In this document: piece by piece, positions 2,827 through 43,980 of the stretch
Position numbering within the stretch: position 1 is the stretch's first letter
Layout: every line of letters begins with the position of its first letter
IMG/VR virus record: IMGVR_UViG_3300024262_000057
Location: 1-45,750 of that record
Reading direction: 5' to 3' (one strand)
DNA: 45,750 nt
Source: a virus
The notes under the pieces: model-generated
Seen by the model: only the letters and a program-made list of their open reading frames with translations
The model's database searches: none
Told to the model about the DNA's origin: nothing
Program-made: the position numbers and the translations under genes

Positions 2827-2949
2827 TCATCTCACCTTTGTCAGCCAATCAATCCCCCAATCTATAGCTTTCAAGAAAGGATATGCCAATGCAAAGAGAA
2901 TCAAGCCTCCTGTCATCCTACCCAGTATTGCCAGATCTCTACCGGTCAT
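2827..2949 (-). CDS. Small single-pass membrane protein, likely part of the lysis cassette
   Basis: A 40-residue ORF whose ATG overlaps the stop of the holin gene as TAATG, the classic arrangement for translational coupling. One hydrophobic segment (GGLILFALAYPFLKAI) is flanked by basic residues at the N-terminus and a Trp-rich amphipathic end. It is below usual ORF length cut-offs. The coupling to a holin suggests a second holin, antiholin or pinholin, but this is inference; no family was recognised. Confidence 0.55.
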   Translation of the reverse strand: MTGRDLAILGRMTGGLILFALAYPFLKAIDWGIDWLTKVR

Positions 2950-3272
2950 TATTTATCCCAATGAAATAATTTCCAAACTCTGGACTCGATCTTCTTTTTT
3001 AACCTCTCCAAAAAGGCATCGGTTTTAGCTTTTGGTAGAGCGGCAAGTGCAAAATTAACCGCTAGATCCAGTTTGTCGTTAGAGGGCAAATTCTTTCCTC
3101 TCTTCGCCACATAAGCCCGCCCTGCCTCTTCGGCATACGAGACGGCCTGGTCAACTACTGTGTCCTCCATTTCCATGTCCAACTTTTTATTGGCCTTGTG
3201 GAAAAACGCCCCGATGAATCCTGTTAAAACTGCCCCTAGTAGAGGGACAACTGCCAAAATTAATGTTTCCAT
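2949..3272 (-). CDS. Holin, LL-H type (phage holin superfamily 6-like)
   Basis: 107 residues. The N-terminal hydrophobic segment (about residues 3-24, ILAVVPLLGAVLTGFIGAFF) is followed by an acidic/basic helix with AVSYAEEAGRAYVAKRGKN and a C-terminal charged amphipathic part. This is the layout of LL-H family holins, which have one N-terminal membrane helix and a long soluble domain with the conserved segment A-V-x-x-A-E. AAAGGAGAGAGATC gives a strong ribosome site. It would form lesions in the inner membrane that release the endolysins encoded at 3741-4349 and 4364-4795. Confidence 0.75.
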   Translation of the reverse strand: METLILAVVPLLGAVLTGFIGAFFHKANKKLDMEMEDTVVDQAVSYAEEAGRAYVAKRGKNLPSNDKLDLAVNFALAALPKAKTDAFLERLKKKIESRVWKLFHWDK

Positions 3273-3512: not shown

Positions 3513-3747
3513 TCCGTTTCTCCTTTGCCGTCTTCACCAGTTTAAGCTTCTCGCTAAAAGCCTCTACGCTTACTATCCATCGAGCGAGGCGCCCTTCGAC
3601 TTCCCACAGATGCCTGATTAGGCATTCATCCGTTCCGCTGATCCTGATTTGAGCAAACATAGTTTGCAGGGTATTTGTGATATTGTCCAGCTCCCCTTGC
3701 AGATTTTCTGTCGTTAGTTTTTTTATGGGTTTCCACTGCGTCAGCAT
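3505..3747 (-). CDS. Small helical protein in the lysis cassette, unknown
   Basis: 80 residues, predicted mainly helical with heptad-like spacing (LQGELDNITNTLQTMFAQI and later AFSEKLKLVKTAKEKR). No membrane segment or signal peptide. It overlaps the amidase gene upstream by seven bases and the membrane-coiled-coil gene downstream, so all are co-translated in one block. No family recognised; a regulator or chaperone of lysis is possible, but only by position. Confidence 0.55.
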   Translation of the reverse strand: MLTQWKPIKKLTTENLQGELDNITNTLQTMFAQIRISGTDECLIRHLWEVEGRLARWIVSVEAFSEKLKLVKTAKEKRND

Positions 3748-4349
3748 GTCAGCACCTTTGCCCCGGTTGCCTCTATATGGGCTTTATAATCCTTCCTGAT
3801 TATCTCCCTGATTCCCTCCACTATTGCCTCCGCCAGTGCTAGTCGTCCCTTATATGTTAATAGGGGGCGGGCATCCTTATCATTATCAATAAATAAGGGT
3901 TCCAGGATGATGCCCGGGCATTTGGTGTCCATAATAAATCCGAGATTGTCCCTGTGCTTTATGCCTCTATCCCTATTGCCCAACGCCTGCTGGATATGCC
4001 TTTGTAATATTTCGGCATACTCCTTCTCGGTATCGGTATTATATAGCGTTTCGCATCCATCAGCCCCTCCGGCAAAGGCATTGAAATGCAATTCTATAAC
4101 CAGACTCACAGGCTTAAGCTCGTGAATCGCATTAATGCTGTGAATCTTCCACTTTAAGGAATCCTGATAATCTGTAAATTGAGTGAGATGTATGTCTACA
4201 TCCAAAAAAGCTATCTCTTTATTGCCTGTGAATAGGGACATCACAACATCGCAAATCTGTAAAGCACAGCAATGTTCTCTCAGGTGATACTTGACGTTAT
4301 CCGCCCCGTACCGATCATTATCATGTCCTGCTGAAAGTATTATATGCAT
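3741..4349 (-). CDS. N-acetylmuramoyl-L-alanine amidase (amidase_3-like endolysin)
   Basis: 202 residues. The family pattern of zinc amidase_3 enzymes is visible in order: an N-terminal IILSAGHD (His9 as first zinc ligand), VIELHFNA (His88 as last zinc ligand), GCETLYN, and PGIILEPLFIDN (Glu150 as catalytic acid). The length fits a bare catalytic domain with no separate cell-wall-binding module. It would cut the amide bond between MurNAc and the peptide. No signal peptide is present, so export would rely on the holin. It follows the M15-like peptidase gene with a 14-base gap. Two peptidoglycan enzymes in one cassette suggest a combined attack on the wall. Confidence 0.85.
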   Translation of the reverse strand: MHIILSAGHDNDRYGADNVKYHLREHCCALQICDVVMSLFTGNKEIAFLDVDIHLTQFTDYQDSLKWKIHSINAIHELKPVSLVIELHFNAFAGGADGCETLYNTDTEKEYAEILQRHIQQALGNRDRGIKHRDNLGFIMDTKCPGIILEPLFIDNDKDARPLLTYKGRLALAEAIVEGIREIIRKDYKAHIEATGAKVLTC

Positions 4350-4363
4350 CTTTTATATCTCTT

Positions 4364-4795
4364 TTATCTCTTTTCGTTTCTGTCGTCAATATGATAAAAG
4401 GGTTTGTGGTAGCCCCACCAATATATTCCAAGTGCTGAGAATAATCCAAGCCTATCAATCTGCCGCATTACCTTTCTTGGGGATAATTTACACCAAAAAT
4501 CCAATGCTCGCCCGCGATAGTGATAGGAATCATCGGCATGCCCTGATGTGGCAAAGCCATCAATAATATTCATAGAAACATCAATAACTAATCTTAGAAG
4601 TAAAATTTTCTGCATAAAGACATAGTTCATTTCATCACCACACTCACGCGGTGTAAAGAACGAATACATCCCCGCCCATTGATCTTCCGTCATCCTCTTT
4701 CCTTCTCTTCTTACTGCCTTTGCGGTTACCGTCCTCGCGGAAAGAAACGAGGGCAACGGGAGGTAGACATTACCCTCGCAGAAGAGTGCTGTCAT
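4364..4795 (-). CDS. M15-like D,D-/L,D-peptidase, candidate endolysin
   Basis: 143 residues from the ATG at 4795, which overlaps the stop of the sigma gene (ATGA). An ATG at 4693 with GAAGGAAAGAGG upstream would give a 109-residue core and may be the real start. The M15 zinc pattern is present: SYHYRGRALDF (His92 and Asp99, H-x6-D), then PFYHIDDR (His134 and Asp136, H-x-D). The family cuts peptide cross-links or stem peptides in the cell wall. A sigma-28-like minus-10 motif (4811-4823) lies directly upstream. The N-terminal 34 residues look unstructured and may not be translated. Confidence 0.7.
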   Translation of the reverse strand: MTALFCEGNVYLPLPSFLSARTVTAKAVRREGKRMTEDQWAGMYSFFTPRECGDEMNYVFMQKILLLRLVIDVSMNIIDGFATSGHADDSYHYRGRALDFWCKLSPRKVMRQIDRLGLFSALGIYWWGYHKPFYHIDDRNEKR

Positions 4796-5115
4796 TTTAC
4801 TTCTTTACTTATATTATCTGCATTCAATCCATAGTGAACTATTTCCGGTTTTTTTTCTTTACTCTTTGTCCGATACGGACGCATTCCTTGATGCTGATTA
4901 ATCGCCGTCAACATCGCTCCCCTTATCCGCCGATACGCATACGTTATAAACTTAACCCCTCTCTTTGGATCATATCTTTCCCATGCCTCCATTAACCCAA
5001 TACACCCATAATCGTATAAATCATTTATATCCATTCCCTTCGGCAATCGAGAAGCAAAAGACTTTGTCATCTTTTTAACCTCCGGTAAATAATCAGCAGG
5101 GGAAGGTCTAATCAC
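4792..5115 (-). CDS. Minimal sigma factor, FliA/sigma-28-like region 2 only
   Basis: 107 residues from a GTG at 5115. An ATG at 5070 behind GGAGG is an alternative start giving 92 residues. Residues 8-73 align by eye with sigma-70 family region 2: DINDLYDYGCIGLMEAWERY (core-binding helix and 2.2), then KFITYAYRRIRGAMLTAIN (2.3-2.4). The closest familiar match is FliA, which has Y-D...F-x-T-Y-A-x-x-R-I-R-G-A-M-L. No region 3 helix-turn-helix or region 4 follows; the last 30 residues are basic and polar. I infer it binds host RNA polymerase and recognises a minus-10 element alone, as T4 gp55 does. It overlaps the gene upstream by eight bases and is coupled to the M15-like gene. Confidence 0.75.
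   Translation of the reverse strand: MIRPSPADYLPEVKKMTKSFASRLPKGMDINDLYDYGCIGLMEAWERYDPKRGVKFITYAYRRIRGAMLTAINQHQGMRPYRTKSKEKKPEIVHYGLNADNISKEVK
4811..4823 (-). promoter_or_regulatory. Candidate late promoter motif, copy 1
   Basis: On the minus strand this reads ATGCAGATAATAT, matching three other sites (25020-25032, 36754-36766, 41746-41758). It contains GCAGATAA, one base from the sigma-28 minus-10 consensus GCCGATAA. A start about seven bases downstream would place the mRNA 5' end just before the ribosome site of the M15-like gene. It lies inside the 3' end of the sigma gene, where it codes A-D-N-I. No shared minus-35 element is seen. Confidence 0.5.
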
Positions 5116-5674
5116 AAAGCTCGAATTGATCGGACTGATTGTTAGTTATCTCATCAAACTCAGCCTGAGTAATCTTCTGTGGATTTTTTACTAATATAGA
5201 TCGCTCCCACGTTTCGCCTTTACATACAGATCGTGCATCTATATTGACCAATACGGCAAAAGTAACTCCTACCGAATTTTCCTGAGCTTCACCCGTAGCA
5301 AGTATATAACGAGGGCCAGTAGTGTATGGTAGTTCCGGGTGGGGATCATTTATAAACTCTTGCCCTTTGTGATACGTCCGCTCCGGCTTTTTCTCCTTAA
5401 CTTCAGTGGCGTAGCCATTGTTTAGGAGCCAATTCCAATTACCAAATACATCCTCTCCAAGGCACCAACCATATACGACCTCCAAACTTGGCTCATCTAT
5501 CCATCCAAATTTCCTAACATACTTGTTAAATTCCCCACTACAGGGATTCGATTCAAATATACTCTGTCCGGATAAACTCTTTAGCTTCCTGTATGTTCTA
5601 TTCAGAGTTTTGTCTGTTATGGTGTCGGTTGCCATCTTGCCTGTGCCTATAGGATAATGCGGAAATGGAGGCAT
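5108..5674 (-). CDS. Unknown protein upstream of the phage sigma gene
   Basis: 188 residues from the ATG at 5674, or 175 from the ATG at 5635; both have only modest ribosome sites. No family recognised. It is soluble, with a Trp-rich centre (VVYGWCLGEDVFGNWNWLL) and a beta-rich C-terminal half. It overlaps the sigma gene (stop at 5108, sigma start at 5115), so expression of the two is probably linked. A regulatory partner of the sigma factor is possible, but nothing in the sequence shows it. Confidence 0.55.
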   Translation of the reverse strand: MPPFPHYPIGTGKMATDTITDKTLNRTYRKLKSLSGQSIFESNPCSGEFNKYVRKFGWIDEPSLEVVYGWCLGEDVFGNWNWLLNNGYATEVKEKKPERTYHKGQEFINDPHPELPYTTGPRYILATGEAQENSVGVTFAVLVNIDARSVCKGETWERSILVKNPQKITQAEFDEITNNQSDQFELCD

Positions 5675-5970: not shown

Positions 5971-6309
5971 CTATGGCTTGCAATGTCGCTCAGTCATTAG
6001 TCTCTTGATGTGCCGATAGGTCGGGTCAGCATGGTTTAGTCTCCATGCTTTAGAGCATGTCAAAGAACAGAAGTGGTGTTGCCCTTGCCTAGCCTTGGCT
6101 TTGGAACGTATGAATGGATGCTCGCACTGATCACACTGTAATTGCACCTGATATCGGGATGTATCCACCTGCATGTCTCGCAGTATGTGCCATATAGCCT
6201 GGCGTGAGCGGTGATAGCTCCGTACTAACACGCTCATGGATACACCTGCCAAGTATGCCTGCTTTAAGCCCTGTCTCTCCTCGCCTGTGAGCCGTCTGAC
6301 TCTGTCCAT
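5971..6309 (-). CDS. HTH plus treble-clef zinc-finger DNA-binding protein
   Basis: 112 residues. The N-terminal half (residues 7-48) looks like a resolvase/homeodomain-type helix-turn-helix: LTGEERQGLKQAYLAGVSMS followed by a recognition-helix-like SRQAIWHILRDM. The second half has CDQC (residues 59-62) and CSLTC (81-85) in the C-x2-C/C-x3-C spacing of small phage zinc fingers related to HNH-type treble clefs, but without an HNH catalytic His-Asn-His. It is the first gene of the leftward operon that reaches the phage sigma factor. A transcription-regulator role is inferred. A consensus-like promoter and a strong GGGGG ribosome site precede it. Confidence 0.7.
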   Translation of the reverse strand: MDRVRRLTGEERQGLKQAYLAGVSMSVLVRSYHRSRQAIWHILRDMQVDTSRYQVQLQCDQCEHPFIRSKAKARQGQHHFCSLTCSKAWRLNHADPTYRHIKRLMTERHCKP

Positions 6310-6327
6310 AATTTACCCCCTGATATA

Positions 6328-6355
6328 ACTATACATATCTATTAAATAAAGTCAA
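6328..6355 (-). promoter_or_regulatory. Sigma-70 promoter for the leftward regulator operon
   Basis: Minus 35 TTGACT (6350-6355) and minus 10 TATAGT (6328-6333) are separated by 16 bases; each differs from consensus at one position. The ATG of the HTH-zinc gene follows about 20 bases downstream. An inverted repeat GTCAA-gttaa-TTGAC (6351-6365) overlaps the minus 35 box and is a candidate operator. Confidence 0.7.
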
Positions 6356-9397: not shown

Positions 9398-10615
9398 CTA
9401 TTCCTCCTCACTTAATATTTGGTTATAAACTTCTTCAAACTTTCCCGGCCAGAATCGCAAATCTCTAGTGATATTAGGTGGCGGGCAGATTTTGAGCGCC
9501 TTGTCCCGGATCGGATCTGCCTCCATAGCCGAGGTGTCTATATGCAGGTAATCGCCATATGCCTGGACTTGTCCTTTGTGCAACTGCAGCCATGCGAACA
9601 GTTGTCTGCTCACAGCCTTGCCTTTGTCCCCTTCTTGCAAATCGGTTACTTGCAGGATCTCGTCTTCCCACCTTCGAGCGGATAACCACCCCTGAGGCAT
9701 TTTGGGTATCCTATCCTTCGCCAAAATAGCCTTCCGCTCTATATTATACCTTTTTGCACCTGCAATAATCTTTTCAAATAAACCATTATCAATCTGCAAT
9801 CTCAGCCATACATCGCTGGCTTCCGCCATTCCACGCTTATCGCCAAAGGCATCCCAGAATTTAAGGAACATTTTTAATTGATCGCCTTTTAAAAATTTCC
9901 CTTTCCTAGTCCGATAGGAATCGGACATAATAGAGGTATTAGTATTAATACTTCTTTTATCTTTACTCTTATCGTTCTTACTATATAGTACGTTCTTTAT
10001 CTTTTCTTTCTTGTTTGTGTTCACTTTTTGCTTGTTTGTTGTTCGTTTTTTGCTTGTTTGTTGTTCATTTGTTGTTCGTTCCGGATTTCCCCGGGTTGGT
10101 AACCCAGCCAATTTATTATAGTTATTATAGAATATCTGTTGTTTATTTGTTGTTCGTTTTTTGCTTGTTTGTTGTTCATTTTTTGCTTGTTTGTTGTTCA
10201 TCTTTTGTTCATCTGTTGGTCGTTTGTTCATCTGTTGTTCATTCTGTTGTTCATTCCGGATTTCCCCGGGTTGGTAACCCAGCCAATTTATTATAGTTAT
10301 TATAGAATATCTGTTGTTCATTTCGATGTTCAAATTTCCCATTTTTTCTAAAATACGCAACCATCTCCACACAGTGAGTGGTGATTTATGTTTTTTTCCT
10401 TTCCTGGGGTAGTAATCTCGGTGGAGGGAAAATCTTCCGGTAATGAATTGTCCGGGCAATACTTTTACAGGGTTAATAATTCCCTGGATTGGCACCCATA
10501 TTTCTTTATGACTAGCGTTTAATAAACACAATGTCCAGAGCCTCCATAATTCCTCCCTTTGAAACACTTGCGAATCTATACTTTTCCTGTAGAGCTTTAT
10601 ATACCCACGCTCCAT
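9398..10615 (-). CDS. Replication initiator / replisome organiser-like protein with internal origin
   Basis: 405 residues from the ATG at 10615 (GAGGTAAGG upstream; an in-frame start at 10642 is less likely). Residues 1-115 look like the winged-helix N-terminal domain of phage replisome organisers (GYIKLYRKSIDSQVF, LTVWRWLRILEKMGNL, IITIINWLGYQ). A low-complexity Asn/Gln/Lys/Thr linker covers about residues 115-230. The C-terminal domain (about 240-405) starts LKMFLKFWDAFGDKRG. The linker DNA carries iterons, AT-rich tracts and a repeat read in two frames, the layout of lambda O and similar proteins whose genes contain the origin. It would bind the origin and recruit the host helicase loader or helicase. 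Confidence 0.7.
   Translation of the reverse strand: MERGYIKLYRKSIDSQVFQREELWRLWTLCLLNASHKEIWVPIQGIINPVKVLPGQFITGRFSLHRDYYPRKGKKHKSPLTVWRWLRILEKMGNLNIEMNNRYSIITIINWLGYQPGEIRNEQQNEQQMNKRPTDEQKMNNKQAKNEQQTSKKRTTNKQQIFYNNYNKLAGLPTRGNPERTTNEQQTSKKRTTNKQKVNTNKKEKIKNVLYSKNDKSKDKRSINTNTSIMSDSYRTRKGKFLKGDQLKMFLKFWDAFGDKRGMAEASDVWLRLQIDNGLFEKIIAGAKRYNIERKAILAKDRIPKMPQGWLSARRWEDEILQVTDLQEGDKGKAVSRQLFAWLQLHKGQVQAYGDYLHIDTSAMEADPIRDKALKICPPPNITRDLRFWPGKFEEVYNQILSEEE
10079..10143. repeat. 65-bp perfect direct repeat, copy A
   Basis: Identical to 10254-10318. The offset is 175 bases, not a multiple of three, so the same DNA is read in two frames of one protein: here it gives NNYNKLAGLPTRGNPERTTN in the linker. 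Confidence 0.95.
10254..10318. repeat. 65-bp perfect direct repeat, copy B
   Basis: Identical to 10079-10143. Read here as SIITIINWLGYQPGEIRNEQ, which completes the winged-helix domain. This is probably the original copy; the other is an out-of-frame duplicate within the tolerant linker. Confidence 0.95.
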
Positions 10616-10649: not shown

Positions 10650-11897
10650 TCATATCAGCCTTCCTTGTCTTGTAGCTTGCTTGATACGGGTCTCCGTCAT
10701 CTGACAATATTCACTTGATGCATCAATGACGATGTAATCGCGGCCATATTGTGCAGCTACCGCCGCCGTTGTGCCTGAGCCCACAAAGGGGTCTAATACT
10801 ATGCAGGGAATGGGACGCTCTACTTTACATTTACAGGTGGGCCGCCAGCCGATTGTTTTAACTTCGGTATATCCAGCATCACCCTTGCCGTTTATGTCCG
10901 CATAGGCTCCGTGATAGATTGCTGGACGGTAGCGTATATCATCTTTGGGCAATTCGGGTCGGGTTAACCGCTTTCTTTCAACAATTCTCTCCCATGGCGC
11001 CCCGCATTTGGGACAGCATCCCTTCTCGGATGTGCCAGCCAAGATACAAGGTTCAATTAGCTTGGGCGGGAAGGTGGCGAAGTGTGCTTCCTTGAAAGGG
11101 TGGGTTGCTACCGTCCAGACAGAGCGTTTATTGCGGCCTGTTTCTGCTAACTCTTCTTGATAAACAGATTCTTTACCTTTATTTTTACCTGGAGTATGCT
11201 CATAAGTATTACCACCCATAAAAGTAGTAGGCCGTCTTACAATAGTTCCCTCTTTTATTGCATCTGCATCATAATAATATCTATTATTCTTGGTCATAAG
11301 GAAAATGTACTCATGGCTTTTAGTCGGCCTATCCGTTACACTCTCAGGCATTGGATTGGGTTTGTGCCATATTATATCAGACCGCAGCCACCAACCATCA
11401 GCTTGAAGGGCTAGGGCTACACGCCAGGGTATGCCGCAAAGGTCTTTGGGTTTGAGGTTCTTTGGTGTGTTGTATTTATTCGGATATTCGGGCTGCCAAT
11501 TTTTTGATCGTTTATCCTCTGATTGGCCACCTTTACCGCTACCCGCATAACTATCCCCTAAATTAAGCCACAGCGTTCCATCCTTCCGCAACACCCGCCA
11601 TACCTCACGAAAAATCAAAACCATTTTTTCAACGTATTCTTCTGGGGTTTTCTCAAGTCCAAGCTCGGCTGGCTCGAAGTATTTTTGCAAATGTTCCGGT
11701 ATGTCTTTTTTGATGGTCAACTCTTTTTTTAGTGTTTCTAATTCATCTTGTGTTAAATTTTCTCGCAACTGAACCTTATCTGGTAAATATGACCGCAACC
11801 CCCAATATGGTGGACTGGTTATGCAACACTGCACGGATTCATCAAGCATCTGCTTCATTATATCCCGGCAGTCTCCCTGAATGATCCTATTTATCAT
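10650..11897 (-). CDS. DNA methyltransferase, N4-cytosine/N6-adenine type (beta class)
   Basis: 415 residues from the ATG at 11897 (MINRIIQGDCRDIM); an upstream in-frame start at 11954 would overlap the previous gene. Catalytic motif IV SPPYW (residues 28-32) comes first and the AdoMet motif DPFVGSGTT (about 369-377) last, the beta-class order. SPPYW is common in N4-cytosine and some N6-adenine enzymes. A Cys cluster (CCPKCGAPW and CKCK) before the last motif suggests a zinc-binding insert. No restriction enzyme gene lies next to it, so it probably protects phage DNA from host restriction or marks it for replication or packaging. Confidence 0.85.
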   Translation of the reverse strand: MINRIIQGDCRDIMKQMLDESVQCCITSPPYWGLRSYLPDKVQLRENLTQDELETLKKELTIKKDIPEHLQKYFEPAELGLEKTPEEYVEKMVLIFREVWRVLRKDGTLWLNLGDSYAGSGKGGQSEDKRSKNWQPEYPNKYNTPKNLKPKDLCGIPWRVALALQADGWWLRSDIIWHKPNPMPESVTDRPTKSHEYIFLMTKNNRYYYDADAIKEGTIVRRPTTFMGGNTYEHTPGKNKGKESVYQEELAETGRNKRSVWTVATHPFKEAHFATFPPKLIEPCILAGTSEKGCCPKCGAPWERIVERKRLTRPELPKDDIRYRPAIYHGAYADINGKGDAGYTEVKTIGWRPTCKCKVERPIPCIVLDPFVGSGTTAAVAAQYGRDYIVIDASSEYCQMTETRIKQATRQGRLI

Positions 11898-11917
11898 ATC
11901 AGCTATTATATTCTCTA

Positions 11918-12076
11918 TCAAACTGCGTAGGCTAATACGAAAAGCAAAGCACAAAGCCAGCCAGCAAAATAGTGAAACTCATAAATTTTTTTATGCTCGC
12001 TTACACCATATATAGCCAGAACTAAATTAAAGCCCGTTACCACGATTATAAGCGCATTAATTATATTATCGATCAT
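11918..12076 (-). CDS. Small two-pass membrane protein
   Basis: 52 residues from the ATG at 12076, preceded by AAGGAGAAT. Two hydrophobic segments (about residues 5-24 and 33-52) are joined by a charged loop (GVSEHKKIYEFHY). No family recognised. It stands alone between a terminator and the methyltransferase gene. Superinfection exclusion or an early membrane function is possible; a holin-like size is noted, but it is far from the lysis genes. Confidence 0.55.
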   Translation of the reverse strand: MIDNIINALIIVVTGFNLVLAIYGVSEHKKIYEFHYFAGWLCALLFVLAYAV

Positions 12077-12149: not shown

Positions 12150-12500
12150 CTATGATTTAATTTCTATGTTTAGAAGGGCGGGATTTAAGACCCCTCCAAC
12201 TTTATTTGCTTCATCCCCTTCGCTATGAAGTTGTTCCTCTTCATTCCATTTCTTGCGAAATTCTTCTCCGCGACTGTGGTATTTAGATACCATTTGGGCT
12301 ACGCAACCTGCCATAAAGGCAGTAATTCCTTCCGCTTTAACATCATCACAAGCCCGCCAAATAATTTGGCGGGCATCAAATTCCGCATCTTCATCTAAAA
12401 TCTCCATAACTCTACGAGCAACATCCACGCAACATTTCCCGTAAGAGTCATCATTAATCTTAACACACTCATTCCAAATCTTTTGTTCTACAATAGGCAT
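12150..12500 (-). CDS. Unknown small protein downstream of recT
   Basis: 116 residues, mainly helical and acidic, with a helix at residues 45-70 (ARQIIWRACDDVKAEGITAF). No metal-binding Cys pattern despite four Cys. AGGGAGACAAAAG supplies the ribosome site. It ends the first part of the early operon at a strong terminator. Function is not known. Confidence 0.6.
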   Translation of the reverse strand: MPIVEQKIWNECVKINDDSYGKCCVDVARRVMEILDEDAEFDARQIIWRACDDVKAEGITAFMAGCVAQMVSKYHSRGEEFRKKWNEEEQLHSEGDEANKVGGVLNPALLNIEIKS

Positions 12501-25003: not shown

Positions 25004-25019
25004 ATCTTACTCCTTACTT

Positions 25020-25032
25020 ATATTATCCGCAT
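25020..25032 (-). promoter_or_regulatory. Candidate late promoter motif, copy 2
   Basis: Minus strand ATGCGGATAATAT followed by AAGTAAGGAG. It contains GCGGATAA, one base from the sigma-28 minus 10 consensus. It lies between the tailspike gene and the first internal virion gene. A predicted start seven bases downstream gives a very short leader of about 12 bases. Confidence 0.5.
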
Positions 25033-25078: not shown

Positions 25079-27145
25079 TTAATACACCACCATTAATTCG
25101 CCTGTTGCTGTCCTGTAAACATCACCAGCCACCAACCCTCCCGCTAGGGCCGCTACATTGTTAGCATATACACCAAAAAAATCTATATGTTGCAAGCGCA
25201 CCATCATAATATACTGGATTGAACCGTGAGAACCGAATGTATAGCCGGAACCAAATGTTGCAGCCGCTGTGCCGAATGTCTTAGCCGACTCCTCGTTCTT
25301 AGAAAATCGGATTGTCGCCGCTAAGTTAGGATCTGTAACAGTCCCCTCTATGTTAATTAACACTGTTCCGGGGGCTGAAACATTCGTCAAATCAACATCT
25401 CCATAAATATCCTGGAACCAAAAGTTGCGCACATTACCAGCAGCAACACTCTGGTTTAGATTAGATTTTATGACTCTACACATTCCGGTTGTAGTTGCTG
25501 GTAAATGAGTGCTGGACCATGTAGCTGTTCCTATAACCCCCTGGATGTAATATATTTCCTCTGCATCAAGCATATAGCCACCGGTAGAATCTGCATGAAA
25601 TAGATCCCATGCATTAGTACTTTGGACAACGACTGTTTTGAGTTTAGACTGATGCATTCCTCTGTCCCTAATAACAGACCAGTTAGTGCTTGCTCTTTCT
25701 TCCACATAGATATTTTCAAGAGTAGTTTGATAACCATTGGTATCAAAAATAGGCACAGTAGGGTTATTAACTTGTCTAACTACGTTTACATTAAAGAATT
25801 TAGTACCCTGCACCTCGCCTCCAGCAGATCCATAAGTGTTATTAAAGCCAACGCTATAAAAGAAAGGCAAAGTCCAATTCTTTGCGGCACTATACACAGC
25901 CTTTATATTAGTGAAGGTTAAACGCCTCATACCATGCCAGGAAGTTGCAATACCGCTTTCTATATAAAGATTGGTAAACCTAATATCCGCAGCATCAATA
26001 TTGCTAACAAATATGCCCCAATCATCTGTAGCCCCATACATCTGGAGATCTGTAAAGGTTGAATTGTTTGTATATCCAAGGAATATATTGCCATAGTTAT
26101 TATCGAATATCAAATCCCTGCATATTTTATTGTGAGCCGATATAGTGTCTCCCCCAACCTGCATAGCATAGCTGGCTCTTTCTACCGTCCCACCTCCGGC
26201 ATAGGCAGTAAATCCGGTTGTGTTGTCGCTAATAGTAAAAGTGTTGACTGTGGCATTGGCAACTATATAAACGCCATTTATGGCGCTTAAATCGGGATTG
26301 GCAGCAGATTGTACACCAGTTGCGTTTCTGATTCTCGCCAATTCTCCGTTATCTAATCCATGCCCTGCCGCTGTTATCATGCAAGGATTGGCAATAGTTG
26401 CGGCAGTAATATTGGTAGTTGATATTGCCGCACCCGCATTTATCTGCTTTACTCGTTGTACTTGTCCTGAATAATATACCCCAACCTGCGAAGTTACCAA
26501 CAATAAGGAGCCATCAAGCGAATTCCCGTCCAATGTAAAATCTTCAAGGAGTCCTTTCCCGTCAAAGGTGATTAATGTTGTGTCTCCCGATAATCTCTGC
26601 AAGATAGTAGATTCTATCTCAGCGCCAGATAATCGCTGATCCCTGATTACATGGCCGCCAGTTGTTGCGTATGTTGTAGAAAGCAATCTGGTACAATCAT
26701 ATGCCGCTAACGCTTTTGTTATTGCAGCAGTCATATTAGTAGTGCCAGGGGTAGTATTCGTTGCCCACCATTCTACATAGTCATGCTCGATCGTGCCAGG
26801 GTCAAATACCACCGTCACATCGCTGTCAAACACCTGATATGAACTAGCCTCAAAACTCTTGAAAGTGATCGTATAGGGGCCAGAAAACAATGTGCCCTTA
26901 AGCGCCACCACATGAATATTAGACGGCACGGTACTATCAGCCGTAAGCGACTGTGTCTGGGATGTTACCAGCGTAACACTATCAGATCCTATGGCAGATA
27001 CAGCATCGGCGAAGGAGGTATAGTCGCTTGCAAACTCGATATTCTCCATGCGGTCATCGAGCGCATTCATCTGATTGCGCATAATCAATGCGGTCATGTA
27101 CTTATCTGACTGAGGCGTTCCTCTATCGTATCCTCTATATGTCAT
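25079..27145 (-). CDS. Tailspike / pectate-lyase-like tail protein
   Basis: 688 residues. Short N-terminal helical part (MTALIMRNQMNALDDRMENI) then a long parallel beta-helix: repeated short strands with Asn/Thr turns (DLIFDNNYGNIFLGYTNNST, DIRFTNLYIESGIA). The C-terminus has GLVAGDVYRTATGELMVVY, a common end of phage spike proteins. It would bind and perhaps cut host surface glycan. Near the C-terminus (codons for SAKTFGTAAATFGSGYTFG) lies a 91-bp segment identical to part of the 666-residue tail gene; this looks like an acquired block. Confidence 0.75.
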   Translation of the reverse strand: MTYRGYDRGTPQSDKYMTALIMRNQMNALDDRMENIEFASDYTSFADAVSAIGSDSVTLVTSQTQSLTADSTVPSNIHVVALKGTLFSGPYTITFKSFEASSYQVFDSDVTVVFDPGTIEHDYVEWWATNTTPGTTNMTAAITKALAAYDCTRLLSTTYATTGGHVIRDQRLSGAEIESTILQRLSGDTTLITFDGKGLLEDFTLDGNSLDGSLLLVTSQVGVYYSGQVQRVKQINAGAAISTTNITAATIANPCMITAAGHGLDNGELARIRNATGVQSAANPDLSAINGVYIVANATVNTFTISDNTTGFTAYAGGGTVERASYAMQVGGDTISAHNKICRDLIFDNNYGNIFLGYTNNSTFTDLQMYGATDDWGIFVSNIDAADIRFTNLYIESGIATSWHGMRRLTFTNIKAVYSAAKNWTLPFFYSVGFNNTYGSAGGEVQGTKFFNVNVVRQVNNPTVPIFDTNGYQTTLENIYVEERASTNWSVIRDRGMHQSKLKTVVVQSTNAWDLFHADSTGGYMLDAEEIYYIQGVIGTATWSSTHLPATTTGMCRVIKSNLNQSVAAGNVRNFWFQDIYGDVDLTNVSAPGTVLINIEGTVTDPNLAATIRFSKNEESAKTFGTAAATFGSGYTFGSHGSIQYIMMVRLQHIDFFGVYANNVAALAGGLVAGDVYRTATGELMVVY
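25205..25295. repeat. 91-bp perfect direct repeat, copy in the tailspike gene
   Basis: Identical to 30054-30144, in the same reading frame in both genes. It encodes about 30 residues including TFGSGYTFGSHGSIQYIM. Flanks are unrelated, so it is a sharp local duplication. Confidence 0.95.
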
Positions 27146-28406: not shown

Positions 28407-30407
28407 TCATAACTCCTTCGGTATTGTTTTTATGTATATCCCCTGAAACTTAAAGGGCTTCGTTATTGCAAAATTGTCCAGCCCGATCTGTAACGACTTG
28501 AAAGAGAAGAATATTCGTTGCCTAACTGGTGTATCTTCGATAGCATCGCTCTTTGTAACTACTGCCGTGCCGGCCCCGTTTTTGTAAAAGCTCACATTGA
28601 ATGTAGCGGCTGCACTACTGTCTCCGGACAGGTAGTATTCTGTAGCCAGGATAGCCCCGAATGGTACTTCTGTTACGCCCGTCTTTAAAGAATAATCAGG
28701 TTGGTTGCCGTCATCGTTTACGTCTGCTGATAATGTATATAGATATCCATTTGTGCAACCGATATAGAATGTATCGTTGATATATGCAAAAGCCGATGGC
28801 GTCAGATCTTTAAGTTCATATTCCGTCCAGGGATACTGTATCCTGCCTTTTAGTGGCACAGGACGTTTTGTATGACATACTAATATCTTGTCGTATCCGT
28901 TCAATTTTAGCAGGTATTGTCCATTGGCCGGATCGTAGACGGCAAATGCGCCTACATCCCAATTATCCTCTATAGTGGGCAATACAGGATCGCCCGCCGA
29001 TGATTCCCTTAAATCGCCATAAAGTTGTGTGCCACTTAAGGGGAAAACGCCCGCTTTGTTTGCAAACCAAATATCGTTCCCCGTGCTTACAATACTGTCT
29101 CGATTGGAATACATATTATGATTGACAGTCTCTTGGGCAAAGACATCGGGCGATGTAACCAATATTTTGACAAGGTATGGCGATTGAGGCTCACCTATGG
29201 CATATAGATCATCGTATAGCACCTGCAAGCCGCCCAGTTTAAAGTTGTTTGCATTGTCATCTATCAGGCCGATATAGCCGCCGCCAAAGGATGTACTGTA
29301 ATCAAAGATGCTATTGACGTTGGTGTATCTCACCCATCCGGGACTATCGGGATCTTTAAAAAACATCCTATTGTTTCTTGTCACTCCGAAACTGCCCTTT
29401 GGGGGTCTGCCTGGTTTCAGGCCGAATAAAGGAGTCCCCGTCCCTTCCTTCCACGATCCCTCATAATAATATTCTATAGTGGCCGTGGTGTCTTTATATA
29501 CATTTATATAATTGTCAGCATCCCCATTTTCATATTCGACCGAGAAGAAATAATTTGTGCTTGGCACCATATCGTATCCTGTTGCGAAGGCGAACGTAAT
29601 CTCCGTGGCATGCGTACTCAGCGAAGCGGAATCCATGGCAGTAGATGTAGCCAACACACTTGTCCTGGCCGAGTTATATACCTTGGCATAGATATTACCC
29701 GTTGGGCTGCCAACTGCCGCAATATCGCATCTAAGCTCTTTTGTCGGTATCGTATAACCGCTATCCCAATCAGATATGGTGACTCCGCCTCCACATGCCG
29801 TAACTGTCCCGTTAAGGCTTCGTGTGGTGTCCTGATCGTCATCGGTATAGTCGAACATATATCCATCGGAACCAGTGCCGTCATCGTAAGCCAGACTCAA
29901 ATCAGAGCCATCCCAGTATTTAATGTAGGAACCATCAAGAACAACCGCATGGCCAGCGAAGGGGATGACTGTCGCATCACCTTCCAGTGTGCCTATGGAC
30001 GTGGGAGCACCTGTTGCATCTATGTAATACAATTCATAATTGGCGTCTACTAACATAATATACTGGATTGAACCGTGAGAACCGAATGTATAGCCGGAAC
30101 CAAATGTTGCAGCCGCTGTGCCGAATGTCTTAGCCGACTCCTCGAAAAATACCTGCACTATCTGTTTAATCGCCGTCGCATCTGTAGTGATAGTGCTTGT
30201 ATATGCCGCTACCCCCTCTCTTGTCTCAAGCCTCCCAAAGTCGTTATATTTAAAGTTTGTCGCCACATCCAATTCGCCAGGCTCCAGTTGCTTATCGTTC
30301 TTGAGCCTGTTAATGCCCAGAGGAAAATTAGCAAACGGCACAGATTGTGTTTGCGCCTTTGGAGAGAAGGCTTTGCCTGTCTGACTTTTTATTTGAGGAA
30401 GAGGCAC
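28407..30407 (-). CDS. Tail / neck protein with beta-propeller-like repeats
   Basis: 666 residues from a GTG at 30407 (AGGAGGCGGTAA upstream). N-terminal FANFPLGINRLKNDKQLEPG is typical of tail proteins in short-tailed phages related in position to P22 gp10. Repeated short strands end with Gly-Tyr-Asp or Trp-Asp turns (AVVLDGSYIKYWDGSDLSLA, YLLKLNGYDKILVCHTKRP). Downstream of the adaptor gene. The 91-bp repeat lies at codons about 88-118; here it blends with its surroundings, so this is likely the donor. Confidence 0.65.
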   Translation of the reverse strand: MPLPQIKSQTGKAFSPKAQTQSVPFANFPLGINRLKNDKQLEPGELDVATNFKYNDFGRLETREGVAAYTSTITTDATAIKQIVQVFFEESAKTFGTAAATFGSGYTFGSHGSIQYIMLVDANYELYYIDATGAPTSIGTLEGDATVIPFAGHAVVLDGSYIKYWDGSDLSLAYDDGTGSDGYMFDYTDDDQDTTRSLNGTVTACGGGVTISDWDSGYTIPTKELRCDIAAVGSPTGNIYAKVYNSARTSVLATSTAMDSASLSTHATEITFAFATGYDMVPSTNYFFSVEYENGDADNYINVYKDTTATIEYYYEGSWKEGTGTPLFGLKPGRPPKGSFGVTRNNRMFFKDPDSPGWVRYTNVNSIFDYSTSFGGGYIGLIDDNANNFKLGGLQVLYDDLYAIGEPQSPYLVKILVTSPDVFAQETVNHNMYSNRDSIVSTGNDIWFANKAGVFPLSGTQLYGDLRESSAGDPVLPTIEDNWDVGAFAVYDPANGQYLLKLNGYDKILVCHTKRPVPLKGRIQYPWTEYELKDLTPSAFAYINDTFYIGCTNGYLYTLSADVNDDGNQPDYSLKTGVTEVPFGAILATEYYLSGDSSAAATFNVSFYKNGAGTAVVTKSDAIEDTPVRQRIFFSFKSLQIGLDNFAITKPFKFQGIYIKTIPKEL
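30054..30144. repeat. 91-bp perfect direct repeat, copy in the 666-residue tail gene
   Basis: Identical to 25205-25295 and in the same coding frame. See the paired entry. Confidence 0.95.
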
Positions 30408-31061
30408 TTACCGCCTCCTGTACTTTATCTTCATCTTGGTCGGCGTCCGTTTCCTGACAATCGCCATAGCCGACCGCTCAAGCTCATTATATATCCCTGT
30501 AAAATCAGCCGCTATATATCCTGCCTCTATCAATGCCATGCTGGTCATAAATTTGCTTAGAGCCCTGTTAAACAAATCATTGTACGGCATAACTCCATCT
30601 AAGGCCAAGTCAGACGTTTTGGCATAAAAATATGTTATTATGCTAAATGTCCCGCCTACAGGTGGCAGAAACCCGATGCTGGTATCGGTTAAGTAAAACA
30701 TAGTCGGTGTCGAACTGTCCCGTACATTGCCGATATACTCTACCTTTTCGCCCTCATCTACAGGGCTGAGAAAGGCATTGCCACAATAAACCCCTGTCTG
30801 CTCCGAATTCACGCCTTCAAACATCGCTACCAGATCCGTCATTGTATAACTTGAGAATCCATATAAATCCGTGCCCGATGTAGTGGTAATAGTAGACGTA
30901 TCAACGGCCAGCCTGCTTCTGTTCTCAATCAATAGTTGCCTTAAATAATCCAGTGCATCATTGAGATACACAAGCAAGACAGCGTCTGTCCACTGTGTTT
31001 CATCAGGGTCTTTCTTCCGTGCAATGCTATTATCTATTATGGTCTGAGGGGTCGTTGACAT
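30408..31061 (-). CDS. Head-to-tail adaptor-like protein
   Basis: 217 residues. The N-terminal helix bundle pattern (IIDNSIARKKDPDETQWTDA, LVYLNDALDYLRQLLIENRS) is that of phage connector/adaptor proteins, which dock under the portal. A beta middle section and a C-terminal helix with basic tail follow. Lies between the capsid block and the tail protein, the expected place for an adaptor such as P22 gp4. Family assignment is by position and shape, not a clear motif. Confidence 0.65.
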   Translation of the reverse strand: MSTTPQTIIDNSIARKKDPDETQWTDAVLLVYLNDALDYLRQLLIENRSRLAVDTSTITTTSGTDLYGFSSYTMTDLVAMFEGVNSEQTGVYCGNAFLSPVDEGEKVEYIGNVRDSSTPTMFYLTDTSIGFLPPVGGTFSIITYFYAKTSDLALDGVMPYNDLFNRALSKFMTSMALIEAGYIAADFTGIYNELERSAMAIVRKRTPTKMKIKYRRR

Positions 31062-32854
31062 TGCGCCTCCTTAAATCTCCTTATCTTCTCCGGAATATCT
31101 ATCGGGATGGGGTATGTTTTCGTGAGGATTCCCATCTTTTCAGCCTTATTATAATATTTTAAAGTTTGCTCAAAATCGCCTTTTTCCTGGTAGATAGATC
31201 CTATCAGATAAAGCAATATGCCATCCTTGGGGTAGGCTTTTAGCCCGACTTTTAATTCCTCGATAGCTTTATCCCGTCCGCCCCTATTCACCATTCTATG
31301 GCAGTAGCAATCGGCCACCAAATGAAGGCTGTACTTTGCCCATTCGCTTGGGCCTTTACTCTGACATTCTCTGACATTCTTAAGGCAACTATCGTAATCC
31401 TCAAGCTGGAGATAACTTGCCGCCAGATTATAATAATCAGTGCTTGAGCCATTGCCGTTATTTACTAATTTCGATAATATTTTAAAATTCCGTGCTGCTT
31501 TTCTCTTCCTATCCGTTATTGTAAAATAGCCGAAATGCTCTATGGGAATATTGGCTTTGTGTACTTTAAGTCTCGCCCGTACCATCGACGGAGTGAGTTG
31601 TTCGTGTATCTTGCCTTCCCATAGGACATCCGTCCTGTTAGGAAAGATACGCATCTGCCACGCATTAGATGGAGATCTTTCCTCAAATCGGTTCACTAAC
31701 TTCAACATAACGCCCATATCCCTGCTGAGGGATAGTTGCGGTTTAAGATTCATAAGTCGCTTTAAAGAGTCGGGTGGCATCCTATCATCCGCATCGAGCC
31801 ATAGGAGATAATCTGATTGGGCTATATCTTTTGCTTTATTTCTCGCGCCCGCAAAATCATCTCTCCATTGGTATCGTCTCACTTTGGCTCCGTAGGACTT
31901 GGCTATTTGAATTGTCTTATCGGTTGAACCTGTATCTACCACTACGATCTCATCTATAACATCACTCTGCAGATCACTAAGTAAGTGCCCTATCCTGGCC
32001 TCTTCATTCTTTGCGATTATAGTAACTCCGATTGTTGCCAGCAATTTGGGGTCTTTTGGGAAATCAGGCCAATTACACCCAAATAATTCCATTGTCGGAG
32101 GGACATTGCCCTTGCCATAGAAATTCTCTAATTTGGCTTTTAATATGTTTTGACTTTCCTCTGAACGCTCATTTGAGTTGCGTATCGAAGCAATAGAGCG
32201 TGTTATATCGGGTTTATGGTAGATAAAGACATCGGTGGCAATAATAAGTTTGTATCCGTTAAGTCGTAGTCTAAATGAATATTCCAGATCTTCGTTGCCA
32301 AAGAAGAAATCGCTGTCCAGCATACCAATATGATCTATAACATCCCGCCTTACCAACAGACAGAATCCAATCAGGAGTTTGGTCTCCAGGCTTTTCCCTT
32401 TATTCTGCCTATATATCGTCCTTGCAAATGTATCGGAGTCTATCTCGCCTAGATTCTTCTTAGTGTAATGGTGATCGAATCTTTGATACCCTCCTACATA
32501 ATTAGAAATCGGCCCCACAGCGCCTACATCGTCTTTGAAGTGCGCCAGCATACGCTTCAGCCAGTTCTTTGTAACCACCGTATCGGGATTAAGCAAAAGC
32601 ACATATTCGCCCTTAGCCGCTTTTATTCCCCGATTACATCCCTTGGAGAACCCTTCGTTTTCATCATTCAAAATTACTTGAGCATCGAGGCTTGTATGTT
32701 GCAAATATTCCCGTGTTCCGTCGGTAGATGCATTATCGACTATGATAACTTCATAAGGAGTATGCGTATAATCCTTAATGCTGCTGAGGCATCTAGGCAA
32801 TTCAAAGATGGAATTATATGTCAATATAACAATGCTTACTTTAGGTTTCTTCAT
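31037..32854 (-). CDS. Double GT2-type glycosyltransferase with TPR tail
   Basis: 605 residues from the ATG at 32854 (MKKPKVSIVILTYNS), chosen because the zinc-ribbon gene upstream ends within it. The first GT-A domain (1-270) has VIIVDNASTDGTREYL and LLLNPDTVV. The second (about 270-460) has ATIGVTIIAKNEEARIG, VVVDTGSTDKTIQIAKSYGA and LLWLDADDRMP, the aspartate metal site. The rest has TPR-like helices (YNLAASYLQLEDYDSCLKNV, DGILLYLIGSIYQEKGDFEQ). It sits inside the virion structural operon. Glycosylation of capsid/tail proteins or of a host surface glycan is inferred. Confidence 0.8.
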   Translation of the reverse strand: MKKPKVSIVILTYNSIFELPRCLSSIKDYTHTPYEVIIVDNASTDGTREYLQHTSLDAQVILNDENEGFSKGCNRGIKAAKGEYVLLLNPDTVVTKNWLKRMLAHFKDDVGAVGPISNYVGGYQRFDHHYTKKNLGEIDSDTFARTIYRQNKGKSLETKLLIGFCLLVRRDVIDHIGMLDSDFFFGNEDLEYSFRLRLNGYKLIIATDVFIYHKPDITRSIASIRNSNERSEESQNILKAKLENFYGKGNVPPTMELFGCNWPDFPKDPKLLATIGVTIIAKNEEARIGHLLSDLQSDVIDEIVVVDTGSTDKTIQIAKSYGAKVRRYQWRDDFAGARNKAKDIAQSDYLLWLDADDRMPPDSLKRLMNLKPQLSLSRDMGVMLKLVNRFEERSPSNAWQMRIFPNRTDVLWEGKIHEQLTPSMVRARLKVHKANIPIEHFGYFTITDRKRKAARNFKILSKLVNNGNGSSTDYYNLAASYLQLEDYDSCLKNVRECQSKGPSEWAKYSLHLVADCYCHRMVNRGGRDKAIEELKVGLKAYPKDGILLYLIGSIYQEKGDFEQTLKYYNKAEKMGILTKTYPIPIDIPEKIRRFKEAQCQRPLRP

Positions 32855-33017
32855 CCAGGCACCTTTTGCATACATAAAATCCGTCTTGATAAATGAGTTC
32901 ATCTTTGGGAAACTGAAAACCACACCTGTCGCATACGATTGTCGATGTAGTTACCGTGCTTGACTCGCCGCCAAGCTCACTTATCTGAGTTATGCTCGCA
33001 AGATATATTTCACGCAT
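32841..33017 (-). CDS. Small zinc-ribbon protein upstream of the double glycosyltransferase
   Basis: 58 residues. CDRC (35-38 approx.) and CKRC (53-56 approx.) in TIVCDRCGFQFPKDELIYQD and FYVCKRCLDE. It starts with an ATG at 33017 and its stop codon lies inside the first codons of the glycosyltransferase gene, so the two are coupled. It is too short for most ORF filters and shares no frame with neighbours. Role unknown; adaptor or RNA-binding function is possible. Confidence 0.7.
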   Translation of the reverse strand: MREIYLASITQISELGGESSTVTTSTIVCDRCGFQFPKDELIYQDGFYVCKRCLDEET

Positions 33018-41745: not shown

Positions 41746-41758
41746 ATATTATCCGTAT
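41746..41758 (-). promoter_or_regulatory. Candidate late promoter motif, copy 4
   Basis: Minus strand ATACGGATAATAT then TATAAGAGGAG. It contains ACGGATAA, two bases from GCCGATAA. It covers the stop codon of the last glycosyltransferase gene and lies directly before the packaging-head operon. Predicted mRNA 5' end falls just before the ribosome site of the DUF3008-like gene. Confidence 0.5.
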
Positions 41759-42345
41759 TCTCCATAAATCTCCCTTGGAACAGCAACATTTCCCGTCCCG
41801 GGTTTAGCATGACTCCATTTCTCTGAAATAATCCCTACATTGTCCCACCAATAAATATTATATTTCCCTTCATCGAAGATACTTTTAATATAATAGAAAT
41901 CTCCCATCCGGGGAGCCCCGAAACTTTCAATATACTTCTGGAAAACTTCATTTTTAGTAATAATGCACCCACCCCCGATATGTCCTGCAATAGGATACTT
42001 TCTCCAAAATTCATCGGAAGGATAAATCGCCCCGCAAATTCTGGTTCTTAGCATAATGACATCGGGGCAATTATTAACTTCCACGGTTGTTTTTAAAGAT
42101 GCAATAAATTCATTACTTTGTATATAATCATCATCATCCATTAACATAACATACTTTCCTTTTGCTCGTGATCGATGCACATAAAACTGCTTATTAGCCC
42201 AATGCAGCCCTTTTCCCACATCATCAACTATAAAAATCTGCTGCCAGTCTTGATCCATCTGATTCTTTAAAGATTGCATATTTTTCTTTAATCTATCCGG
42301 TCTTTTGTAGCATCTCGTTATAATTGTAAGGAAAGGTTGTTTCAT
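41749..42345 (-). CDS. GT2-type glycosyltransferase
   Basis: 198 residues. GT-A pattern: FLTIITRCYKRPDRLKKNM, QQIFIVDDVGKGLHWANK, and YVMLMDDDDYIQ (Asp70-73, the D-x-D metal site), then GHIGGGCIITKNEVF. Short for the family, so it is probably only the catalytic domain. It overlaps the previous glycosyltransferase by four bases and is last in the radical-SAM cassette. Substrate unknown. Confidence 0.75.
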   Translation of the reverse strand: MKQPFLTIITRCYKRPDRLKKNMQSLKNQMDQDWQQIFIVDDVGKGLHWANKQFYVHRSRAKGKYVMLMDDDDYIQSNEFIASLKTTVEVNNCPDVIMLRTRICGAIYPSDEFWRKYPIAGHIGGGCIITKNEVFQKYIESFGAPRMGDFYYIKSIFDEGKYNIYWWDNVGIISEKWSHAKPGTGNVAVPREIYGEYG

Positions 42346-43040
42346 TTTAATATCTCATATATTTCATCTTTCATCCCTGGAAAGTGCTTATCTAACCATT
42401 TATTAGGTGTATCTATTTCCTTAATGTATACTGTATTTGCTTTTATAATATGCTCCCATGTATCTGCCATATCCCAACTACCCTTAGGAGACAAGATAAC
42501 TCCACCAACTTCACAAGTCTTTCCCCTTGCTTTCATCAGTATTTTCCACATTTCTCCATCAGGGTATATTCGTTGAATAGTACCATAAACTTCCCAATCC
42601 ATTCTATCTAAATACTGTCTCGTAAAAGCCACACCAGAACCAAAAAAATCTACCCTTGTCTTATAACGTATCTGATAAATAGCTTTTGTTTTAGTCATAT
42701 CCCATATCACTTTAACACCCAAAGCATCATATCCATCAGCCTTTTCTATACATAAGGCATTATAATTTAAAGCAAGTAAATCATCGCTACCTGTTACCAT
42801 AACCATATCAGGGTTATATTTTCTAGCCTGAAAGATTCCAGCCTGAATTTTCACTCCAAGTTTATTATTACTATAATGAATATATTCCACACCACACCTA
42901 TTCGCTGTTTCCTCGTCTTGAGGACAACTACCCACTAAAATAATTTTATAGAATGGAATAGTCTGTCTTTTCAAATAACTTATTACCAGCTTAGTTATTT
43001 CTGGTCTTTTGTAAATAGGTACAACACAAATAACTTGCAT
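42342..43040 (-). CDS. Glycosyltransferase, GT-A fold
   Basis: 232 residues from the ATG at 43040 (MQVICVVPIYKRPEITKLV) behind GGAGATATTT. The N-terminal Rossmann-like strand and VMVTGSDDLLALNYNA (Ser-Asp-Asp as D-x-D) define a GT-A fold. The DNA is visibly more AT-rich than nearby structural genes. Between the radical SAM gene and another glycosyltransferase. A sugar-nucleotide transferase of unknown acceptor. Confidence 0.7.
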   Translation of the reverse strand: MQVICVVPIYKRPEITKLVISYLKRQTIPFYKIILVGSCPQDEETANRCGVEYIHYSNNKLGVKIQAGIFQARKYNPDMVMVTGSDDLLALNYNALCIEKADGYDALGVKVIWDMTKTKAIYQIRYKTRVDFFGSGVAFTRQYLDRMDWEVYGTIQRIYPDGEMWKILMKARGKTCEVGGVILSPKGSWDMADTWEHIIKANTVYIKEIDTPNKWLDKHFPGMKDEIYEILK

Positions 43041-43053
43041 AAATATCTCCATT

Positions 43054-43980
43054 CTAAATCCATTGTCTATGCTCAAGACAAGTAGCCAAAATATGATTAA
43101 CTGCTAGACCCTTACAACCAGATGGACAAAGAGAGGTATCAGCATTTCTTAGTACGTCTTGCCGTTTGGTAGAATAAATTATATTAGATAAGGAAGACTC
43201 TCGTAAGTCTCCAACTTTAAAACGAGGCCAAGAGCATGTACATATCCAACATTCTCCTTCTACTGTAATAGACATATGAAAGTTACCGAAAACACACTTC
43301 GGTGGCATTGAATACTCTGCTCTATCTTGGCGGATTATTACCTTAAACTTCTCCGTTTCTTGCATTTTAATTACTTCTTGTTCTTGGTTACTTATCCATA
43401 TAGTACGATTATTTTCATCTGGCCGTATCTGTAAATAATTTACATTCTGCCTTTTTGCCCATTTAGCAAGACTTACAAGATTACTACGATTCTCCTCAGT
43501 TACAATAGCTTGAACGCCTGTGTAAGTTTGTCTTGTGGAAGATGTAATGTTTTCAAATAAACATATAGGCAAAGGAACTCCTCGAATGCTCTCATATATA
43601 TTGGGACTCACAGAATCAATACTAAATTTTACCCACTGGAAATAGTCAAAAATATCAGAGGACACTTTGACTGCTCCATTAGTAATTAAACCACATGGAA
43701 TAGATGTTTTATTAAAAAGTTCGATATGACCTAATAAGGGTTCACCTCCTCCACAAACAGAGATACCCTCAACACCAAGTTCGCTAGCTTGTTTTAATAT
43801 ATCAAGTAACATGTTCTCAGTCATTATTACTTCATTGTGTTTAGCTGTGCAATATTTACAATGTTGATTACATTTATTAGAAGGTTGAATATCCAAAGTA
43901 ATGGGGATAACGGGATCTCCGTTCCAGAATGCTTGTAATCTGTCTGGATAGTTTAATAATTTTGAAGCATTACCTATCAT
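43054..43980 (-). CDS. Radical SAM / SPASM-like enzyme
   Basis: 308 residues. The [4Fe-4S] motif CNQHCKYC (Cys37, 41, 44) follows PVIPITLDIQPSNK; GGGEPLL and FSIDSV are further radical SAM landmarks. The C-terminal part has CVFG, CWICTC and CPSGC, a Cys-rich arrangement like an auxiliary-cluster (SPASM/twitch) domain with SWPRFKVGDLRESSLSNIIY. Such enzymes modify peptides, sugars or nucleotides. It is followed directly by two glycosyltransferases, so a sugar- or peptide-modifying pathway is likely; substrate unknown. Confidence 0.8.
   Translation of the reverse strand: MIGNASKLLNYPDRLQAFWNGDPVIPITLDIQPSNKCNQHCKYCTAKHNEVIMTENMLLDILKQASELGVEGISVCGGGEPLLGHIELFNKTSIPCGLITNGAVKVSSDIFDYFQWVKFSIDSVSPNIYESIRGVPLPICLFENITSSTRQTYTGVQAIVTEENRSNLVSLAKWAKRQNVNYLQIRPDENNRTIWISNQEQEVIKMQETEKFKVIIRQDRAEYSMPPKCVFGNFHMSITVEGECWICTCSWPRFKVGDLRESSLSNIIYSTKRQDVLRNADTSLCPSGCKGLAVNHILATCLEHRQWI

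Follow-up and report, generated by a model that had tools for sequence, protein, structure and literature searches.

A stand-alone sigma-28-type region 2 protein encoded just before the lysis genes of a phage

A phage genome in IMG/VR, searched here as the entire linear virus record (45.7 kb; this whole stretch is referred to below as the window), encodes a protein of 107 amino acids (P0001). It is a genuine, folded domain 2 of the sigma-28 type, and domains 3 and 4 are missing. Our preferred explanation is a late sigma subunit dependent on a partner protein, by the split-sigma logic of SigO-RsoA and T4 gp55-gp33 (probability about 0.4). The gene and its parts are located as follows:

complement(4792..5115), minus strand: stand-alone sigma-28-type region 2 protein (P0001), 107 aa, GTG start
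4792..5070, minus strand: possible shorter form, 92 aa, from an in-frame ATG (M16) with GGAGG 8 nt upstream
4888..5094, minus strand: Sigma70_r2 match (profile search), profile positions 4-69 of 71
4792..4881, minus strand: C-terminal tail (residues 79-107 and the stop codon), modeled mostly at pLDDT <50, without a match to region 3/4

A preliminary description of this DNA had placed the protein at 4792-5115 without naming a strand; the 107-aa ORF is indeed there, on the minus strand, and the plus strand over the same interval is interrupted by stops. The GTG start and the stop of the upstream 188-aa gene fall within a shared 8 nt, leaving no gap, and the Shine-Dalgarno before the GTG is weak. 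Initiation at M16 would drop part of the first sigma2 helix. Because Y9, P11, and V13 match FliA-type proteins, the 107-aa form is, judged from sequence, more likely to reflect the ancestral start, with the 92-aa form also possible. Codon usage is close to the phage's own (rank 39 of 42, among the most typical), and the gene is genuine and well settled in the phage genome.

The Sigma70_r2 profile matches residues 8-76 (E = 4.8e-16, 58.7 bits, cut-off 24). Because this score equals that of region 2 in a full-length phage FliA-type factor, region 2 is not visibly decayed. PHROG 351 (sigma factor) also matches, with E = 1.8e-19. The top NCBI family is TIGR02479 (FliA_WhiG) at 76.6 bits, 34 bits ahead of the next non-FliA family (42.5 bits); its whole-protein cut-off is not reached (76.6 of 189.6 bits, over profile positions 4-85 of 224). 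The nearest PDB sequences are FliA proteins, identity to Escherichia coli FliA is 40% over residues 9-87, and in the cellular replicons of a plasmid collection the best matches listed are, where annotated, FliA/WhiG-type sigma genes (34%-42% identity). The segment IGLMEAWERY corresponds to residues 39-48 and TYAYRRIRGAML to residues 58-69, and the residues D32, L33, G40, L41, F56, T58, and Y59, which are invariant or common in relatives, are all retained.

The AlphaFold2 model has pLDDT >90 across most of residues 1-76, which adopt the fold of sigma domain 2. It superposes on 1sig (Z 12.4, 1.3 Å, 72 residues), on 3ugo with −10 DNA (Z 11.9, 1.0 Å, 71 residues), and on Pseudomonas aeruginosa sigma-28, 9wsm (Z 11.3, 3.4 Å, 76 residues); the better superpositions on sigma-70 and sigma-A domain 2 fall at 1.0-1.5 Å. 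It should be noted that Foldseek gives weak E-values (2e-3) at probability 1.0 for this short model, and the fold claim rests on superposition and profile scores rather than on those E-values. The profile search proposed in the preliminary description returned both a significant region 2 match and FliA as the best family. The identity claimed there, a sigma factor reduced to region 2, is upheld by profile, structure, and neighborhood, and its derivation from FliA by the family ranking.

What follows region 2 is a tail of ~30 residues that is predicted to be disordered (AlphaFold2) and includes IVHYGLNADNISKEVK; no homology was found for it after residue 78. Pfam region 4 models have zero matches in the record at E ≤ 10. 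We also made our own region 4 profile from 31 relatives, with four held-out relatives as controls (20.9-44.2 bits), on which P0001 scores −1.5 bits. Between them, Pfam and this profile detect no region 4 in any frame of the 45.7-kb record, so the lack of regions 3 and 4 reported earlier stands, and the separate ORF for region 4 that would have spoken against it was searched for across the record without success. The top hit to our profile (11096-11218, plus strand, E = 0.011) covers 41 codons on the strand opposite a methyltransferase gene. A region 4 remnant within the tail was considered at the HTH-like segment GLNADNISKEVK, where MAFFT placed it, and was rejected given no Pfam match and the −1.5 bits. 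A frameshift or stop artifact is unlikely to be hiding region 4, since the next 430 nt are taken up by an endolysin-like ORF and no nearby frame yields a region 4 score.

Region 2 itself has been altered at its end. The helix of regions 2.3-2.4 is FliA-like up to about L69, after which the stretch conserved in FliA, LDxLRxxDWVPRSVR (end of 2.4 and start of 3.0), is replaced by LTAINQHQGMRPYRTKS. The preliminary description had credited the protein with both the core-binding and the −10-recognition parts; this holds for the helix to about L69 and fails for the conserved stretch beyond it. The position of the sigma-70 tryptophan pair is occupied by R62-R63, and the pair is absent in FliA too; in sigma-28, this absence is linked to poor promoter melting and a requirement for near-consensus promoters (PMC12781870). 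Overall, the docking portion is well preserved, and the portion responsible for reading and opening the −10 element survives only in part.

Comparison with known systems places the protein closest to FliA/sigma-28, which it resembles in region 2 sequence and fold and in having no tryptophan pair, although FliA has regions 3 and 4 and the LDxLRxxDWVPRSVR stretch, all of which P0001 lacks. In the split sigma SigO-RsoA, RsoA carries the sigma2 part and a separate protein carries sigma4 (PMC8103513). RsoA of Bacillus subtilis is, by description, a separate small sigma2 protein like P0001, but it is bacterial and has a known partner in SigO, whereas P0001 comes from a phage and has no partner found in the record. 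T4 gp55 works with gp33 and docks onto the beta-prime coiled coil through its region 2-like part (PMC2988020). Acting with gp33 and gp45, gp55 is a phage late factor in which the region 2-like part underlies promoter recognition; it has 185 aa and a clamp-binding C-terminus, compared with 107 aa for P0001. The phiEco32 factor gp36 (214 aa, annotated as ECF) is a phage sigma with no region 4 homology and a single-element promoter, tAATGTAtA (PMC8948821). The preliminary description had likened the protein to T4 gp55 as a minimal sigma recognizing only a −10 element. No such likeness was recovered at the sequence level: BLASTP detects no similarity to gp55 (E = 0.37, tail only) or to gp36 (E = 26), and their regions 2 score 13.1 and 18.3 bits, respectively, versus 58.7 for P0001. 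By these scores, P0001 lies much nearer to a canonical sigma than either of them.

Cut-down sigma factors are already known in a few phages and bacteria. Two short phage proteins in BFVD described as “RNA polymerase sigma-70 region 2” (A0A6J5NZV1, 123 aa, and A0A6J5PZY2, 143 aa; one marked as a fragment) have the sigma domain 2 fold, at 27% and 24% identity to P0001, respectively. Because these entries, gp55, gp36, and RsoA exist, a stand-alone region 2 is not unheard of. It is nevertheless rare among the relatives, because all of them continue beyond region 2: 38 of the 38 distinct phage, viral, or MAG relatives with a readable ORF run at least 76 residues past the matched part (one Lak-phage ORF, which probably uses another genetic code, was excluded), and the 34 cellular matches, from one phylum, have open frames of 188-617 aa. 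No close relative of P0001, including any stand-alone copy, was found in the collections searched, and scans with the neighbor gene, portal, amidase, and HTH protein found no relatives. The terminase is shared with 25 viral contigs, none of which has the region 2 gene (0/25), and the six compared share only the terminase and an occasional enzyme, too little for that absence to bear on conservation. Within the collections searched, the phage stands apart, with no close relative from which conservation or a partner could be inferred.

The gene sits between the replication and recombination genes, which precede it, and the lysis genes, within the following group:

6328..6355, minus strand: sigma-70-like promoter TTGACT-16-TATAGT (10/12), upstream of the HTH gene
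5971..6309, minus strand: HTH/zinc-like protein, 112 aa, predicted N-terminal helix-turn-helix, CxxC/FCSxxC C-terminus
5108..5674, minus strand: upstream overlapping gene, 188 aa, no family and no relatives found; possible partner
4364..4693, minus strand: M15-type endolysin-like gene, immediately following the region 2 gene
3741..4349, minus strand: Amidase_3 endolysin (family match)
2949..3272, minus strand: holin (PHROG 608, weak)

Reading leftward, the order is HTH/zinc-like protein, 188-aa protein, region 2 gene, M15-type gene, amidase, two small ORFs, and holin. The region 2 gene heads the M15-peptidase/amidase/holin cassette, as the preliminary description had it in placing the gene just before the lysis genes. 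Such a position is that of a late regulator, for example, lambda Q. The promoter at 6328..6355 may drive an operon that includes the region 2 gene; the number of sigma-70-like sites in the record is not above that in shuffles. Incidentally, two unlike endolysin-type genes stand here in tandem, the M15-like peptidase, complement(4364..4693), and the Amidase_3 protein, complement(3741..4349). The only HTH candidate nearby is the HTH/zinc protein, which we rejected as a region 4: It scores 1.9 bits on our region 4 profile (controls 20.9-44.2), and the fold matches listed for it (from a low-confidence model) are general HTH domains, with sigma domain 4 absent among them. For its predicted HTH, the structure ranked first is the GcrA DNA-binding domain (Z 7.9, 1.5 Å, 48 residues), a match that falls inside the chance range and is not decisive. 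The same phage encodes a CcrM-like DNA methyltransferase, complement(10650..11954).

De novo motif search in the gaps between genes returned nothing above shuffles. Sites resembling the FliA −10 with at most one mismatch are over-represented (62 vs. 37), mostly within genes, and were not accepted as promoters. One shared element was found:

4802..4821, minus strand: 20-nt element GCAGATAATATAAGTAAAGA, 3′ end of the region 2 gene, 27 nt before ATG 4795
25011..25030, minus strand: second copy GCGGATAATATAAGTAAGGA, 27 nt before the ATG of gene 25003

The pattern GC[AG]GATAATATAAGTAA[AG]GA occurs exactly twice, both times on the minus strand and 27 nt before an ATG, and no −35 partner is seen by eye at either copy. 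The ATG at 4795, which would lengthen the M15-type gene to 143 aa, was chosen after the match had been seen. The element is the best pair among upstream regions (0/60 shuffles), and its first eight bases differ at one position from the FliA −10, GCCGATAA. When the 12 nt beside the ATG are removed, shuffles reach its score in 5/60 and 31/60 cases, and other two-copy repeats of similar score are present in the record. The element is thus only a lead, a candidate −10-type site or a shared ribosome-binding leader.

In the explanation that we prefer, the region 2 protein would bind the host RNA polymerase at its beta-prime clamp helices. It would contribute one half of a late sigma activity, namely docking and promoter opening. 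A second factor, either a divergent or host region-4-like protein or an activator, would choose the promoters, and the two together would switch on the lysis and other late genes after replication. Polymerase binding is suggested by fold and family, late timing by gene position, and partner dependence by the missing region 4 and tryptophan pair and the altered end of region 2.4, given which P0001 alone is unlikely to be good at promoter selection or opening. No frame of the record has a region 4 match that could point to the partner, which may lie outside the record (linear, and perhaps incomplete), be of host origin, or not exist. Two further points count against this explanation: The gene gaps gave no significant promoter motif, and no close relative was found with a stand-alone copy. 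A bolder version, which we regard as a long shot, is that the phage cut a flagellar-type sigma down to domain 2 and made of it a lysis or late switch with an unrecognized factor, perhaps the HTH/zinc protein. If true, this would be a further independent route to a split or reduced viral sigma, starting from a canonical sigma-28.

The expectation of poor promoter selection by the protein on its own is why we place partner dependence ahead of the other explanations. One of these is a stand-alone late sigma that reads a −10 element only, with no partner, in the manner of phiEco32 gp36, for which the copies of GC[AG]GATAATATAAGTAA before the lysis cassette and gene 25003 would be candidate sites. 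The precedent of gp36, without region 4 homology and with a single-element promoter (PMC8948821), speaks for such a factor, as do the two copies on the same strand at equal distance from an ATG, with no −35 visible, a score that no shuffle reached, and the near match to the FliA −10. However, one of the two ATGs was a post hoc choice, the trimmed element lies within the shuffles, and a pair of copies, in a record where similar repeats exist, can equally be a ribosome-binding leader. Moreover, P0001 has neither the tryptophan pair nor a FliA-like end to region 2.4, and no motif in the gaps exceeds shuffles. We consider −10-only action, which the preliminary description had suggested, to be improbable.

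The same pattern of loss, with the core-docking domain well kept and the −10-reading end of 2.4 and all −35-reading parts gone, would suit a competitor of host sigma that sits on the beta-prime clamp helices without directing initiation, thereby shutting off or redirecting transcription of the host. An early position would suit shut-off better than the neighborhood of lysis genes, and core binding by an isolated domain 2 should be weaker than that of a full sigma; we rate this as unlikely. The gene may instead be what is left of an acquired FliA-type sigma gene, cut after region 2 and now functionless, in line with the greater length of every relative examined (38/38 phage, viral, or MAG and 34 cellular), with the failure to find a stand-alone relative, and with a tail lacking found homology after residue 78. 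Against decay stand the intact region 2 (58.7 bits), the native codon usage, and the tight packing of the ORF behind the upstream gene (8-nt overlap), and we are inclined to doubt that it is a remnant. If functional, the protein would be a minimal sigma from nature, made from an ordinary sigma-28 domain 2. One could then test directly what domain 2 achieves by itself on core polymerase, including whether the poorly melting sigma-28 works without regions 3 and 4, and it would offer a compact part for orthogonal transcription.

Several other features of the record deserve mention. A 116-aa protein, complement(12150..12500), matches the Pfam family Tad4 (type I Thoeris inhibitor; 39.3 bits, cut-off 25) and PHROG 9822, and is a candidate anti-defense protein. 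A 96-nt stretch occurs, 98% identical, in two virion genes (25200-25295 and 30049-30144), presumably the result of recent internal duplication or gene conversion. At 9996-10323, tandem units of 11 nt encode Gln/Asn/Lys-rich repeats in a DnaD-like loader, along with a 79-nt duplicated block. Finally, glycosyltransferase-like proteins and a radical SAM-like protein, recognized by eye, are encoded amid the virion genes on the minus strand (31037-32923, 41749-43076, and 43054-43980).
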